Assembly (NCBI RefSeq): GCF_000826645.1
Contig: NZ_JXJP01000008.1
Span: 1-64,000 of the forward strand
DNA length: 64,000 nucleotides
DNA from: Psychroserpens mesophilus
GTDB taxonomy: Bacteria > Bacteroidota > Bacteroidia > Flavobacteriales > Flavobacteriaceae
Direction: 5' to 3'
Below, piece by piece: positions 20,328 to 25,522 of this stretch. Numbering within the stretch: the stretch's first letter is position 1; every line of letters begins with the position of its first letter. The notes beneath the pieces are model-generated. The model saw only the letters and a list, made by a program, of their open reading frames with translations. It did not search any database and was not told the DNA's origin. A program made the translations under genes and the position numbers.

Positions 20328-20400
20328 GACCAGTTAGCTCAGTTGGTAGAGCATCTCCCTTTTAAGGAGAGGGTCCTGGGTTCGAGCCCCAGACTGGTCA
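20328..20400 (+). tRNA. tRNA-Lys (anticodon TTT)
   Basis: A 73-base cloverleaf. The acceptor arms are GACCAGT and ACTGGTC with discriminator A. The anticodon stem is TCTCC/GGAGA around loop CTTTTAA, with TTT at 20361-20363. The D arm (GCTCAGTTGGTAGAGC) and T arm (CTGGG TTCGAGC CCCAG) are canonical. CCA is not encoded. Confidence 0.98.
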
Positions 20401-20403
20401 CAT

Positions 20404-20437
20404 AAAAAAAGTTAAGCATCCGCTTAACTTTTTTTTT
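20404..20437 (+). terminator. Terminator after tRNA-Lys
   Basis: AAAAAAAGTTAAGC and GCTTAACTTTTTTT pair around a short loop, followed by more T. It lies between the two tRNA genes, so they may be transcribed separately. Confidence 0.85.
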
Positions 20438-20454
20438 ATCTTTATTAAAATTAT

Positions 20455-20538
20455 GCGCACGTGGCGGAATTGGTAGACGCGCCAGCTTGAGGGGTTGGTG
20501 GACATTAGTCCGTGGAAGTTCGAGTCTTCTCGTGCGCA
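20455..20538 (+). tRNA. tRNA-Leu (anticodon GAG)
   Basis: An 84-base class II tRNA with a long variable arm. The acceptor arms are GCGCACG/CGTGCGC with discriminator A. The anticodon stem CCAGC/GTTGG encloses TTGAGGG, with GAG at 20489-20491. The T arm contains GTTCGAGTC. CCA is not encoded. Confidence 0.97.
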
Positions 20539-20612: not shown

Positions 20613-20640
20613 AAAAAGATTATTTTTGTTTAATCTTTTT
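20613..20640 (+). promoter_or_regulatory. Palindromic operator/promoter region of the CarH-like gene
   Basis: A perfect 10-bp inverted repeat, AAAAAGATTA - 8 bases - TAATCTTTTT, ends 9 bases before the regulator's ATG. It contains a TATTTTTG -7-like element (20621-20628) and one TTGTTTAAT box (20626-20634) like those before crtI. Autoregulation is inferred. Confidence 0.45.
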
Positions 20641-20649
20641 ATTTTAAAA

Positions 20650-21549
20650 ATGAACAATATCAAAAGTACCTTCAGTATAAAAGACCTTGAGAATTTAACA
20701 GGCATCAAAGCTCACACTATAAGAATATGGGAAAAAAGGTACAACTTGCTTCAGCCCGAAAGAACTGATACTAACATTAGATATTATAGCCTATCCAATC
20801 TTCAAAAGCTACTAAACATTAGTTACTTAAATAATAATGGCTACAAAATATCAAAAATAGCAGCTCTTAAAAATGACGATATCTCTCAATTAGTAAAAGA
20901 AGTTGCTGAGAACGATACAACAAATAATCATGCTATTGATGCCTTCAAATTATCTATGCTCAACTTTGACCAAAAGTTATTTTATGATACTTATGAAAGC
21001 TTAATTAAAGAAAAATCATTTGGAGAAATTTTTTATCAAGATTTAATTCCACTTTTATCTGAAATAGGAATGCTTTGGCAAACGGATACCATTACTCCTG
21101 CTCACGAACATTTTCTGACCTCTCTTATAAGACAAAAGATATTAGTCAATACCGAGATCATTCAATCTCAAAATCAAGTAAATTCTGATAAAATATTTGT
21201 CCTGTATCTTCCAGATAACGAAATTCATGAATTAGGCCTCATGGTTATTAATTATGAAATTATTGCTAAAGGACATCAATCTATTTTTTTAGGTCAAAGT
21301 GTCCCTCTCGATAGCCTTAAAGATCTTCTTAATTATTACGACGACATCACATTCATATCATACTTTACAGTAAAACCTGAAAAAGATGATATTGCTGATT
21401 ACATCAAAGATTTTTCACAGACATTAATTGTTAAAGATTCTATTAAATTTTGGATTTTAGGTAGAATGTTAGATGAAATTGATTTAAATTCACTACCAAA
21501 GCAAATTATTCCTTTCAAAACCATTAAGGATTTAGTTAAAAAACTCTAA
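20650..21549 (+). CDS. CarH-like MerR/cobalamin-binding photoreceptor repressor
   Basis: A 299-residue regulator. The N-terminal MerR helix-turn-helix (about 8-75) has FSIKDLENLTGIKAHTIRIW and EKRYNLLQPERT. A four-helix bundle (about 95-175) follows, then a Rossmann-like cobalamin domain (about 180-299). Trp143 and Glu153-His154 form the Wx9EH motif, and Glu191-x-His193-x-x-Gly196 is the ExHxxG motif with the lower axial His ligand. CarH uses these to bind adenosylcobalamin, tetramerise on DNA in the dark, and let go in light. ATG 20650 is preferred over an upstream TTG. It stands directly before crtI-crtB-crtZ-crtY. Photoreception is inferred from motifs; a B12-independent CarA-like protein is the alternative. 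Confidence 0.85.
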   Translation: MNNIKSTFSIKDLENLTGIKAHTIRIWEKRYNLLQPERTDTNIRYYSLSNLQKLLNISYLNNNGYKISKIAALKNDDISQLVKEVAENDTTNNHAIDAFKLSMLNFDQKLFYDTYESLIKEKSFGEIFYQDLIPLLSEIGMLWQTDTITPAHEHFLTSLIRQKILVNTEIIQSQNQVNSDKIFVLYLPDNEIHELGLMVINYEIIAKGHQSIFLGQSVPLDSLKDLLNYYDDITFISYFTVKPEKDDIADYIKDFSQTLIVKDSIKFWILGRMLDEIDLNSLPKQIIPFKTIKDLVKKL

Positions 21550-21571
21550 AATTTCATCCCTAAGACTAAAG

Positions 21572-21601
21572 TTGTTTAACTTTTGTTTAAATTTGTTAAA
21601 C
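21572..21601 (+). promoter_or_regulatory. crtI promoter with tandem CarH-type operator boxes
   Basis: The 53-base gap before crtI holds TTGTTTAAC (21572-21580), TTGTTTAAA (21583-21591) and TTGTTAAAC (21593-21601), starting 11 and 10 bases apart. On the opposite strand each reads like TnnACA, the core I recall for the 11-bp direct repeats bound by CarH in Thermus. TAAATTTG (21588-21595) is a -7 element lying inside the boxes, so binding would block RNA polymerase. A good -33 TTG is missing. Confidence 0.5.
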
Positions 21602-21602
21602 A

Positions 21603-23066
21603 ATGAATAAAAATATCGCTATCATAGGTTCTGGATTTTCCGCATTATCTGCTTCTTGCTATTTGGCTCAGAGCGGATATGATGTTAGTTTATTTGAAAA
21701 AAATGCTACTGTTGGAGGTCGTTGCAGACAATTAGTTAAACAAGGATTCACTTTTGATATTGGTCCGAGTTGGTATTGGATGCCAGACATTTTTGAAAAG
21801 TTTTTTGGAGACTTTGGAAAGTCTGTATCCGATTTTTACGAATTAGACAAATTAAGTCCTGCCTACAAAATCTTTTTCAAAGACGAAATTATTACGATAG
21901 GTGATACCTTAGACAAAATATGTAAAGAATTTGAGCGTATTGAGTCTGGAAGTTCCAAGCCCTTAAGAAAATTTATAAGTAAAGCTGCTACCAATTATGA
22001 TATCGCCATAAATAAAGTAGTTCTAAAACCTGGAATTTCTCCATTTGAACTCGTTACACCAGAAACTGCATTACGAGTTGATCAGTTCTTTAAGACTATT
22101 AGTGGAGAGGTGAGAAAGCATTTTAAAAATCCGAAATTAATTTCAACGCTTGAATTCCCAGTATTATTTTTAGGTGCTAAACCCAGCAATACGCCTTCGT
22201 TTTATAGTTTTATGAATTATGCCGATTTCGGTTTAGGTACGTGGCATCCTAAAGGTGGCATGTACGAAGTTATTAAGGCAATGGCAGCTTTAGCTGAAAG
22301 TCTAGGTGTAGTTATTCATACGAATAGTACCGTTCAAAAAATTAATGTCACAAACAATACAGCTTCCTCTGCAATAATCAACGGAGAAATCAAAACTTTT
22401 GACGTCATTCTCAGTGGAGCTGATTATCATCATTCTGAAACGCTATTAGATCAAGAGTTTCGCCAATATTCTGAAAACTATTGGAGCAAGAAAACATTCG
22501 CACCTTCTTCACTCCTATTCTATATTGGCTTTGACAAAAAACTTAATAATGTAGAACATCACAATCTGTTTTTTGATACTGATTTCGAAACGCATGCCGA
22601 AGAAATATATGACAACCCTCAATGGCCAAAAGACCCCTTGTTTTATGCTAATTTCCCTTCAGTAACTGATAAATCTATGGCTCCAGCAAATTGTGAAACA
22701 GGCTTTTTCCTTATTCCGATTGCTCCTGGCATTGAAGATACTAACGAACTGAGACATCAATACTTTGATCTTATTATCTCACGTTTTGAGAAACTAACTC
22801 AACAAAGTGTAAAAAATAATATTATATTTAAGGAGTCCTTCTGTATCAAAGATTTTATTAAAGATTATAATTCTTACAAAGGCAATGCCTATGGAATGGC
22901 TAATACGCTATCTCAAACGGCATTTTTGAGGCCCAAATTAAAAAGTAAAAAGGTAAACAACCTTTATTTCACAGGACAACTAACGGTTCCAGGACCAGGA
23001 GTCCCACCCTCACTAATTTCAGGTAAGTTAGTGTCTGAACTCATTAAAAAACACCACAGCAATTAA
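21603..23066 (+). CDS. crtI: Phytoene desaturase
   Basis: FAD enzyme that converts phytoene to lycopene, at the membrane. 487 residues: dinucleotide-binding IAIIGSGFSALSASCYLAQSG with VSLFEKNATVGGRC at the N-terminus, FDIGPSWYWMPD, and the C-terminal signature YFTGQLTVPGPGVPPSLISG. First gene of the crt operon; crtB begins two bases after its stop codon. Length and motifs are normal. Confidence 0.96.
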   Translation: MNKNIAIIGSGFSALSASCYLAQSGYDVSLFEKNATVGGRCRQLVKQGFTFDIGPSWYWMPDIFEKFFGDFGKSVSDFYELDKLSPAYKIFFKDEIITIGDTLDKICKEFERIESGSSKPLRKFISKAATNYDIAINKVVLKPGISPFELVTPETALRVDQFFKTISGEVRKHFKNPKLISTLEFPVLFLGAKPSNTPSFYSFMNYADFGLGTWHPKGGMYEVIKAMAALAESLGVVIHTNSTVQKINVTNNTASSAIINGEIKTFDVILSGADYHHSETLLDQEFRQYSENYWSKKTFAPSSLLFYIGFDKKLNNVEHHNLFFDTDFETHAEEIYDNPQWPKDPLFYANFPSVTDKSMAPANCETGFFLIPIAPGIEDTNELRHQYFDLIISRFEKLTQQSVKNNIIFKESFCIKDFIKDYNSYKGNAYGMANTLSQTAFLRPKLKSKKVNNLYFTGQLTVPGPGVPPSLISGKLVSELIKKHHSN

Positions 23067-23067
23067 T

Positions 23068-23907
23068 ATGAAAGCTATTTTTGATACCGTTTCAAAACAA
23101 TGTAGTAAGACTGTTACTAAGTCTTACAGTACATCATTTTCTTTAGCAACGAAAATGCTCTCGAATTCAATTCGTCAAGACATATACAACATTTATGGTT
23201 TTGTAAGATTCGCTGACGAAATTGTTGATAGCTTCCATGATTACGACAAAGAATTATTATTTCGTAATTTTTCTAATGATCTGGAATTAGCGCTTGAACA
23301 TAAAATAAGTCTTAACCCTATTTTAAATGCTTTTCAAGAAACTTATCATAGATACGCCATTGACAAAAGTATGGTTGATGCTTTTATGAAAAGTATGCGT
23401 CTAGATTTGCACAAACAAAATTATCTCACTGAAGCAGAATACAAAGACTATATCTATGGTTCTGCAGATGTTGTTGGTTTGATGTGCTTGAAAGTCTTTG
23501 TGAAAGGTGATCAGGAAAAATTTGACGCTTTAAAAGACTCAGCAATGAGCTTAGGCTCTGCCTTTCAAAAAGTAAATTTCTTAAGAGATCTAAAAGCTGA
23601 TTTTGAAGATTTAAGCAGAACATATTTCCCGAATACAGATTTAAATCATTTGGATGAAGTTTCAAAGCAAACTATTATTGATGATATAGAAAATGATTTT
23701 GCAAAAGGTCTAAAAGGTATTAAAAATCTTCCTATTGAGGCTAAGTTTGGTGTATTCATGGCTTACAGATATTACAGTCAGCTACTAAAAAAACTAAAAA
23801 AAACACCTGCTCTTGAAATAAAATCGACCCGAATTAGAGTGCCAAATTATAAGAAATTTGAGTTACTCACCAGAAGTTATGTCAAATATCAATTAAACCT
23901 ATTATAA
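23068..23907 (+). CDS. crtB: Phytoene synthase
   Basis: Joins two geranylgeranyl diphosphates into phytoene. 279 residues with both Asp-rich sites of head-to-head prenyl synthases: VRFADEIVDSFHDY and VNFLRDLKADFEDLSRTYFP. TSFSLATKML and the all-helical pattern also fit. Lies between crtI (one-base gap) and crtZ (four-base gap). No GGPP synthase gene is in the cluster. Confidence 0.96.
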   Translation: MKAIFDTVSKQCSKTVTKSYSTSFSLATKMLSNSIRQDIYNIYGFVRFADEIVDSFHDYDKELLFRNFSNDLELALEHKISLNPILNAFQETYHRYAIDKSMVDAFMKSMRLDLHKQNYLTEAEYKDYIYGSADVVGLMCLKVFVKGDQEKFDALKDSAMSLGSAFQKVNFLRDLKADFEDLSRTYFPNTDLNHLDEVSKQTIIDDIENDFAKGLKGIKNLPIEAKFGVFMAYRYYSQLLKKLKKTPALEIKSTRIRVPNYKKFELLTRSYVKYQLNLL

Positions 23908-23911
23908 TCTC

Positions 23912-24361
23912 ATGCAAACGGTATTATGGATTCTTGTTTTTTTAGGTGTTTTTTGCACCATGGAATTTATGGCGTGGTTTACTCATAAATACGTCATGCA
24001 CGGTTTTTTATGGAGTTTACACAAAGATCATCACCATAAAGATCACGATAGCTGGTTTGAGCGTAATGATGCTTTTTTTATTTTTTATGCGGTCGTAAGT
24101 ATGACGTGTTTTTACTTATGGAGTTACGAAGGTATTTGGTATTGTTTACCAATCGGATTAGGCATTATGGCGTATGGAGCGGCTTACTTTTTAGTACATG
24201 ACATTTTTATTCATCAGCGATTCAAGATGTTTAGAAATGCCAATAACTGGTACGCAAAAGGGGTAAGACGCGCGCACAAAATTCATCATAAACATCTCGG
24301 TAAAGGCGATGGTGAATGTTTCGGAATGTTATTCGTCCCTTTCAAATACTTCAAAAAATAA
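23912..24361 (+). CDS. crtZ: Beta-carotene hydroxylase
   Basis: Di-iron membrane enzyme that adds 3-hydroxyl groups to beta-ionone rings, giving zeaxanthin. 149 residues with all the His clusters of the fatty acid hydroxylase superfamily: HKYVMH (25-30), HKDHHH (37-42), HDIFIH (96-101) and HKIHHKH (122-128), and several hydrophobic segments. Position after crtB and before crtY fits the pathway. Confidence 0.95.
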   Translation: MQTVLWILVFLGVFCTMEFMAWFTHKYVMHGFLWSLHKDHHHKDHDSWFERNDAFFIFYAVVSMTCFYLWSYEGIWYCLPIGLGIMAYGAAYFLVHDIFIHQRFKMFRNANNWYAKGVRRAHKIHHKHLGKGDGECFGMLFVPFKYFKK

Positions 24362-24376
24362 TAGTAAATTTTGTCT

Positions 24377-25522
24377 ATGGCTGAAAGTTCCCATTTCGAT
24401 TATATCATCATAGGAAATGGTTTAGCAGGTCTTCAACTGGCTTTAAAACTTTCGGAAGATAATTTCTTCAGCACTAAGACAATTGCTCTGATAGATCCAT
24501 CAGAAAAAAACACAAACGACAAAACTTGGAGTTTCTGGGAAAAAGAATCTTCTCAATGGGATTCTATAATTTCCAAATCTTGGAATAAAGCCTCTGTTTT
24601 AACTTCCGAAAAGGACATACAATTAGATCTAAAACCATATAATTATAATACCATCAAAGCTTTAGATTTCTATAAGTACGCTAAAACGAAACTTCAAACG
24701 AAAGACAACATACACTTTATTATTGAATCAGTAGTTTCAGTTGAAGAAAATGAAGACCTTTTAGTTACTACAAACAATTCAACTTATTCGGCATCTCACG
24801 TATTTGACAGTCGGGTTCCTGAAGAATTTTCAATTCAAAATAACAAAAGCATTTCAATCATTCAGCACTTTAAAGGATGGATCATAAAAACTGAAAACAA
24901 CTGTTTTGACGATTCAAAAGTAATCATGATGGATTATCGTTTAAAGGATGGCAATCAAACAACGTTTATGTACGTGCTTCCGTTTTCAACAACAGAAGCC
25001 CTTGTTGAATTCACCTATTTTACTGAAAATGTAGTTGAAGAGCACATTTACGACAACTTTATCAAAACATATATCAAAGATTATCTTAAAATTGATACTT
25101 ACACTATCCTTGAAACTGAACAAGGACAGATTCCTATGAGCAACTTTGATTTTTCAAAATTCAATTCAAATAAAATAACAAAAATTGGAACTGGAGGTGG
25201 TTGGGTTAAAGGATCCACAGGATATTCCTTCAAACACACTGAAAAAAAAGTCTCAAAAATAATTGAGAATTTAAAGGCAAACCAAAGACCTTCAAGGAAT
25301 TTATTCAAACAAAAATTTAAGTTTTATGATAAAGTATTTCTTAAAGTTCTAAAAGATGAAAATCATAAGGGCGAATGGATTTTTAAGCAGTTTTATGGTA
25401 AAAATTCAATTCAAACCATGTTTCGCTTCCTGGATGAAGAATCTACACTTTTTGAAGAACTGAAGATCATGTGGTCCTTATTTTCTTGGTCGTTCATTAA
25501 AGCCTTTTTTAAAACGCTTTAA
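24377..25522 (+). CDS. crtY: Lycopene beta-cyclase
   Basis: Closes both ends of lycopene to beta-carotene. About 381 residues: FAD/NAD-binding YIIIGNGLAGLQLALKL, then DKTWSFWEKE, VFDSRVPEE, and GQIPM with a later GTGGGWVKGSTGYSF, all typical of CrtY-type cyclases. ATG 24377 is preferred over TTG 24371. Last crt gene; its end overlaps the convergent thioredoxin-like gene by 14 bases. With crtZ it predicts zeaxanthin as the product, since no ketolase gene is seen. Confidence 0.94.
   Translation: MAESSHFDYIIIGNGLAGLQLALKLSEDNFFSTKTIALIDPSEKNTNDKTWSFWEKESSQWDSIISKSWNKASVLTSEKDIQLDLKPYNYNTIKALDFYKYAKTKLQTKDNIHFIIESVVSVEENEDLLVTTNNSTYSASHVFDSRVPEEFSIQNNKSISIIQHFKGWIIKTENNCFDDSKVIMMDYRLKDGNQTTFMYVLPFSTTEALVEFTYFTENVVEEHIYDNFIKTYIKDYLKIDTYTILETEQGQIPMSNFDFSKFNSNKITKIGTGGGWVKGSTGYSFKHTEKKVSKIIENLKANQRPSRNLFKQKFKFYDKVFLKVLKDENHKGEWIFKQFYGKNSIQTMFRFLDEESTLFEELKIMWSLFSWSFIKAFFKTL

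Follow-up and report, generated by a model that had tools for sequence, protein, structure and literature searches.

The regulator and crt genes

The window analysed here is a 64,000-nucleotide (nt) stretch of the Psychroserpens mesophilus genome (NZ_JXJP01000008.1, positions 1 to 64,000, forward strand). It carries a gene for a CarH-like regulator of the MerR family, hereafter the regulator, followed by four carotenoid (crt) genes, and comparison with relatives suggests that the regulator may act on light-protection genes well beyond its neighbours. The genes of the locus are as follows.

20650..21549, + strand: CarH-like MerR regulator, 299 amino acids (aa); ATG at 20650, stop codon at 21547-21549; DNA-binding domain at residues ~1-75, four-helix cap at ~93-175, five-strand Rossmann domain at ~181-299
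21603..23066, + strand: crtI-type phytoene desaturase; NCBIfam CrtID, 713.5 bits (cut-off 640)
23068..23907, + strand: crtB-type phytoene synthase; SQS_PSY, 1.1e-48
23912..24361, + strand: crtZ-type hydroxylase; FA_hydroxylase, 6.7e-11; no NCBIfam match
24371..25522, + strand: crtY-type lycopene cyclase; Lycopene_cycl, 1.2e-54

All five genes share one strand, and successive gaps measure 53, 1, 4 and 9 nt. The Pfam and NCBIfam matches bear out the order given in the first-pass annotation, with the regulator followed by crtI-crtB-crtZ-crtY. That annotation also spoke of a zeaxanthin operon; the crt genes are identified, and zeaxanthin, read from the gene names, is a putative product. It should be noted, as it bears on the product, that the CrtI model whose cut-off is passed is titled bifunctional phytoene desaturase/3,4-desaturase.

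Two data sets were used for comparison, namely a protein set (n = 81) comprising the window regulator and 80 named loci, and a survey of 397 Flavobacteriaceae genomes (labelled G###) in which the 3.68-Mb P. mesophilus genome is G000. A homologue of the regulator was found in 327 of the 397 genomes and was assigned by survey E-value to clade A, the window's type (below 1e-60, 293 genomes), to the divergent clade B (1e-42 to 1e-50, 27 genomes) or to a weak remainder (7 genomes). The closest named relative is Psychroserpens jangbogonensis (89%). The crtI gene adjoins the regulator in 29 of the best 30 survey loci, and a crtI-like GSGF motif lies at most 2.5 kb downstream in 80/81 loci of the named set; the regulator–crt arrangement is usual in Flavobacteriaceae. 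Among 15 clade-B loci, Wx9EH is kept in all, the ExHxxG type in 14, and a crtI-like gene lies within the locus in five.

Three side observations concern the surroundings of the gene. Two tRNA genes (20328-20538) lie closely upstream of the regulator and are the only Rfam matches in the window; the same tRNA end sequence precedes the regulator in many related loci. Furthermore, a metagenome bin labelled Klebsiella pneumoniae carries this flavobacterial regulator plus crtI and is probably mislabelled.

Fold and predicted cobalamin pocket

Pfam assigned MerR_1 (PF13411, 2e-16) and the cap model B12-binding_2 (1.7e-8) to the regulator. The two CarH marks named in the first-pass annotation were located at Trp143 and Glu153-His154 (Wx9EH) and at Glu191, His193 and Gly196 (ExHxxG). 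As GxxWx9EH and ExHxxG they are kept in 81/81 proteins, which led us to reject chance occurrence and to retain the claim of a MerR domain with both marks. The P. mesophilus genome holds a single copy of the regulator. Its top PDB sequence match is CarH of Thermus thermophilus (TtCarH, 3e-14), in an alignment that ends at residue 227 of 299; the PDB alignment of a profile of 41 relatives ends at the same residue. Judged by these alignments, the C-terminal half of the regulator is a drifted one.

An AlphaFold2 model of the regulator (41 sequences) reached a mean predicted local distance difference test score (pLDDT) of 86.5 and contains five Rossmann strands. Foldseek against the PDB returned 96 matches with E up to 0.001; the best 50 were all TtCarH or CtMerR, a CarH-like protein of Chloracidobacterium, with a best E of 8.5e-14. 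The cobalamin domains of TtCarH align to the model with a template modelling (TM) score of ~0.75-0.8 by target length. A CarH-type fold is thus supported by the predicted structure. In the PDB the model matches CarH first, and all nine named pocket positions (G140, W143, E153, H154, E191, H193, G196, G215 and P219) are invariant in 81/81 proteins. The background is 28 invariant positions out of 207 in residues 93-299, giving a hypergeometric probability of 4e-9 with kinship uncorrected.

As to cobalamin supply, the P. mesophilus genome encodes three proteins with PF02310 (frames of 923, 713 and 1165 aa), whose sizes fit MetH and mutases, together with a PduO-type adenosyltransferase. Because of these genes, adenosylcobalamin (AdoCbl) is probably available in this host. 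Co-occurrence across the family can be judged from few genomes, as the PduO-type enzyme is present in 367/397. Six genomes with a clade-A regulator have no match to it; five of these have PF02310 proteins and G280 has none. Among 32 chosen genomes, six are without a PF02310 match: G280 again, and five (G023, G252, G187, G216 and G272) that are also without a clade-A regulator. G023 and G252 belong to the same genus and may simply lack pigment.

Predicted operators at crtI and at the start codon of the regulator

The first-pass annotation, whose gene-level claims stand, overlooked a DNA element that recurs at this locus and elsewhere. Aligning the regulator–crtI gaps of relatives revealed an inverted pair of half-sites, referred to below as the dyad. 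The corresponding features of the window are listed here.

21573..21602, no strand: predicted crt operator, exact dyad TGTTTAAC-N14-GTTAAACA; half-sites 22 base pairs (bp) apart; ends one base before the crtI ATG
21588..21595, + strand: crtI promoter -7 box TAAATTTG, inside the dyad
20621..20628, + strand: regulator promoter -7 box TATTTTTG, fitting the flavobacterial TAnnTTTG
20627..20656, no strand: predicted own-promoter operator; TGTTTAAT (20627-20634), 14 nt, AATGAACA (20649-20656) over the start codon

With up to two mismatches, the crt dyad is present in 31/81 regulator–crtI gaps (16 exact), where shuffles of the 81 gaps in dinucleotide blocks expect 0.02. All 31 belong to the 40 gaps of ~35 nt or more; at short-gap loci, we infer, crt is probably transcribed from the regulator's promoter. 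The sequence TAHHTTTG is joined to the half-site before the crtI ATG in 26/81 loci. The flavobacterial -7 box consensus was taken from PMC6847099 and PMC9723704; these and the other papers cited by PMC number are drawn on for those parts of their text that were accessible. Placing the -7 box at -12 to -5, the predicted crtI leader (21588-21605) would be ~3 nt long. Leaderless transcripts account for 5.5% of the F. psychrophilum mRNAs examined in the accessible part of PMC9723704.

At the regulator's own promoter, the 22-bp spacing observed at crt sets the second half-site on xATGAACA, i.e., on the start codon. TAnnTTTGTT[TC]A occurs at most 60 nt upstream in 73/81 loci, TGTT[TC]A ends exactly 17 nt before the ATG in 72/81, and the gene opens with ATGAACA in 71/81; both the upstream half and ATGAACA are found in 68/81. 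The codon for Asn2 is AAC in 74/74 cases, compared to 32% AAC at later Asn codons and 19/72 at codon 3. In other open frames of these loci (at least 200 aa, uncurated), AAC encodes Asn at codon 2 in 12/39. As the bias at Asn2 exceeds that of the control codons, DNA, and not protein alone, seems to be under constraint at the start codon. Taken together, 75/81 loci have one or more of three site types: a crt dyad, an own-start site, or a full dyad preceding the regulator gene.

A candidate regulon beyond crt

Exact dyads occur at three places in the P. mesophilus genome: at crt (C71:21573), before a GLPGLI-family gene (C12:70033) and at the head of a gene island (C13:227899). In order, its genes encode TetR, ABC1 kinase, flavin reductase, NAD-binding/DUF2867, DASH cryptochrome, PF04244 photolyase-related and second photolyase/cryptochrome-like proteins. 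A further arm, preceded by a one-mismatch dyad (C13:219322), comprises a hypothetical gene, DUF2805, folE, SDR and glutathione peroxidase genes. Regulon membership was restricted to exact sites, to one-mismatch sites recurring in relatives and to sites before orthologues. The looser pattern was rejected as a regulon finder, since at two mismatches P. mesophilus has seven sites versus nine for the control, i.e., no enrichment.

Scanning 40 genomes (38 of clade A, one of clade B, G007, and one with neither) gave 48 exact sites in 29 genomes versus one for the reversed control. Of these, 21 lie at crt, 12 before TetR, six before the folE arm, three before fasciclin-domain-like genes and two before GLPGLI genes, so that 44/48 fall into five recurring gene classes; one of the four elsewhere precedes an SDR and photolyase-like cluster in G191. 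At 30 TetR loci searched over 150 nt upstream, the dyad is present with up to two mismatches in 29 (12 exact), at 32-51 nt before the TetR match; dinucleotide-preserving shuffles of this set expect 0.055. The sole miss is the clade-B genome G007. Left out of these counts are the TetR match of each of G201 and G218 and, in G338 and G009, the second match; G191, read separately, has an exact dyad with the TetR Met 158 nt away, and the match of G030 (8.2e-4) was not counted among the orthologues. In G212 the island begins with the regulator gene; one-mismatch dyads precede both TetR and the folE arm there. From this distribution, the photolyase/folE island probably shares the regulator's switch. 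The dyad being common to crt, the regulator's own start and the photorepair island, one switch therefore probably governs much of the protection of the cell against sunlight, pigment as well as DNA photorepair.

Some sites of P. mesophilus are recorded as side observations. A one-mismatch dyad with TATATTTG inside (G000:C13:310227) lies 227 nt before a katG catalase-peroxidase gene; it is a lead only. Another one-mismatch dyad precedes a fasciclin-domain gene, and such genes have exact dyads in G133, G006 and G157. The exact dyad before the GLPGLI-family gene is placed 22-23 nt upstream both here and in G267.

Assignment of the dyad and alternative readings

The position of the dyad before TetR genes raises the question of which protein binds it, as TetR proteins frequently recognise palindromes that precede the gene encoding them. 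A reading in which the dyad belongs to the island TetR, repressing its own operon and crt, with the CarH-like gene merely beside crt, would account for the 29/30 loci described above. The comparison of clades points to the MerR protein. Six of 38 clade-A genomes are without a TetR match (G130, G141, G221, G048, G226 and G021), yet four of them keep the exact crt dyad, and the TetR loci of both genomes compared that have neither a clade-A nor a clade-B regulator (G059 and G180) have no dyad. Moreover, the half-site changes with the MerR clade. For the 19 further genomes the upstream search covered 250 nt. Among five additional clade-A TetR loci, the dyad is found within 150 nt in two, at ~200 nt in two and in one not at all. 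Among 12 clade-B TetR loci, five (G038, G261, G345, G262 and G040) carry the variant TGTCTAAy-(14 or 15)-rTTAGACA, G230, G253 and G241 have mixed or diverged forms, and G014, G168 and G393 have none. The pattern TGTCWAA-N16-TTWGACA occurs in 17/26 clade-B genomes (26 sites, control 8), in 1/18 of clade A (1 site, control 2) and in 2/8 with neither (2 sites, control 4). It precedes the regulator match by 59-142 nt in 8/15 clade-B genomes with known coordinates. The two clades have different residues at positions 24, 26 and 66 of the DNA-binding domain (I/L, I/K and K/R), and both half-sites, TTAAACA and TTAGACA, contain TnnACA, the core of the CarH operator repeat nAnnTnnACAn (PMC8156234). Because the half-site variant follows the MerR clade, the crt dyad persists without TetR and the TnnACA core is shared, comparison supports the MerR protein as the predicted binder. 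TetR as sole binder is rejected; the TetR reading as a whole, which also leaves unexplained the site at the regulator's own start in 68/81 loci, we regard as the least probable of those considered. Hardly better placed is a MerR protein acting as activator rather than repressor at some promoters. MerR proteins can do either (PMC8156234), the regulator has the family's DNA-binding domain, and the dyad of TetR promoters is followed downstream by a TAnnTTTA-like box. Against this stands the placement of the sites of crt and of the regulator gene, over the -7 box and the start codon, which would suit blocking.

A weightier alternative keeps the same operator and regulon and has the regulator work without B12 in the cell, in the manner of Myxococcus CarA or class II LitR, with stable dimers on the palindrome and a light signal from elsewhere, e.g., an antirepressor or the island cryptochrome. 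A palindromic operator of two half-sites suits a dimer, and the pocket is in part atypical. The residue after Trp143, a His in the bis-His light state, is Gln144 in 81/81; of the GG motif, Gly271 is kept in 81/81 and position 272 is mostly R/H/K/Q; GxxH reads NxxH in 75/81. None of these three deviations is mentioned in the first-pass annotation. The SxT/V-then-GG part of the B12 motif is likewise absent, with Ser237 in 71/81 and mostly Phe at position 239. Three of the four elements of the light-response signature (GxxW, EH, GxxH and GxxxP; PMC11796333) are present, GxxH being the exception. The bis-His residue itself occurs in many, not all, CarH proteins of the accessible literature; a TtCarH H132A mutant is unable to monomerise, and at this position Arg, Gln or Tyr is described in relatives that respond to light (PMC11796333). 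G064 (99% complete; one PF02310 protein of 900 aa) and G280 (96% complete) keep the regulator without an adenosyltransferase match, which may reflect another enzyme type or assembly gaps. What speaks against B12-independence is the invariance of Trp143, Glu153, His154, Glu191, His193 and Gly196 in 81/81 proteins, as CarA is without the Trp (PMC9304148) and class II LitR keeps the helix bundle alone (PMC9758184). We consider this alternative unlikely, albeit clearly more plausible than either of the two preceding ones.

Proposed light and B12 control is the likeliest reading of the conserved pocket. For the switching of crt by light and B12, as proposed in the first-pass annotation, the CarH-type fold, the invariant pocket, a crt-promoter site fitting the regulator and the cobalamin genes of P. 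mesophilus are on the favourable side. Besides the Gln, GG and NxxH deviations and the genomes G064 and G280, several results weigh against it and the wider regulon. The Rossmann model PF02310 has no match to the regulator, and the CarH model NF052513 is the top-scoring NCBIfam family yet reaches 76.9 bits versus a cut-off of 400. Six of 81 loci have none of the tested site types (crt dyad, own-start site, upstream dyad), and the lack of enrichment at two mismatches in P. mesophilus has been described. The clade-A genome G026 has no dyad before TetR, the clade-B genome G025 has the exact A-type dyad there, and the variant is found in 5/12 clade-B TetR loci, not in most. Finally, kinship among species is uncorrected in all P-values and counts.

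Proposed mechanism

In summary, sequence and comparison support the fold, the conservation of the pocket, the operator, the members of the regulon and the choice of the MerR protein over TetR as binder; DNA binding itself, repression, AdoCbl dependence and light control are what we infer. In the dark, the regulator with AdoCbl bound would sit on paired, inverted TnnACA half-sites 22 bp apart. Three kinds of place would be occupied in this way: the regulator's promoter together with its start codon; the crt promoter, where the pair spans the -7 box; and the TetR-ABC1-flavin reductase-cryptochrome/photolyase island, at its head and ahead of its folE arm. There the bound protein would block RNA polymerase. 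Light would split the Co-C bond and the protein would leave the DNA, upon which pigment, DNA photorepair and pterin synthesis would switch on together. That a CarH-type repressor, AdoCbl-bound in the dark and released by light, runs a photoprotection regulon is the reading we favour, with a confidence held only slightly above even because the clade-B evidence is mixed (5/12). More tentative, and in our estimate falling somewhat short of even, is the fuller proposal of a repressor that senses AdoCbl and light, reads a DNA code of its own (paired inverted TnnACA half-sites, one of which falls in the regulator's start codon) and switches pigment, photorepair and pterin as one regulon, with two co-varying regulator/operator pairs in the family.

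Relation to known systems

TtCarH (class I LitR; PDB 5C8D-F, 8C31-37) resembles the regulator in its MerR, cap and Rossmann domains and in Wx9EH, ExHxxG and GxxxP; its gene is located beside crt, and the fold and the TnnACA core are shared. The regulator differs at the position after Trp (Gln instead of His), keeps one Gly of GG and reads NxxH for GxxH. The TtCarH operator consists of three tandem 11-bp direct repeats, nAnnTnnACAn (PMC8156234); this form is not found here, where the TnnACA core occurs as an inverted pair. CtMerR (8JBS, 8JBT; PMC11796333) is CarH-like and light-responsive without the bis-His residue (Arg there, Gln here), but comes from another phylum and keeps GxxH (Gly201, His204). 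In Myxococcales, CarA and Cystobacter CarH are CarH-like crt repressors, as proposed here; the latter is a dimer with direct B12-based photoregulation (PMC9304148, PMC8156234). CarA works without B12 and has no Trp in its Wx9EH motif, which is whole here. The island is similar in content to the targets of Pseudomonas class II LitR (PplR, PmlR; PMC9758184), which controls light-induced photolyase, cryptochrome-like and folE genes; in P. putida, phrB, cryB and folE are among 19 light-induced genes. Class II LitR is a four-helix bundle alone and works with a LOV protein, in contrast to the five Rossmann strands predicted for the regulator.

Closer relatives have been touched upon in several accounts. 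A MerR gene comes first in the crt cluster of Nonlabens spongiae, as here, and is named, not studied, in the accessible part of PMC11855829. A photolyase gene cluster is noted in marine flavobacteria, with no mention of MerR or TetR in that part of PMC5932025 which was accessible. Chryseobacterium lacus forms carotenoid in light only, and its authors found no car or lit genes (PMC7064467, accessible part). A literature search by title and abstract opening returned no flavobacterial CarH-type switch for pigment or photolyases; within the searchable literature, neither the operator nor the start-codon half-site nor the shared regulon has a precedent.

Implications

Flavobacteria are major light-exposed heterotrophs. 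The predicted operator is defined to 30 bp and most of the family has the regulator, so that the question of a common light switch is directly testable. If the proposal is true, vitamin B12 supply would be tied to ultraviolet (UV) repair as well as to pigment, and B12-short cells would run the whole programme even in the dark.

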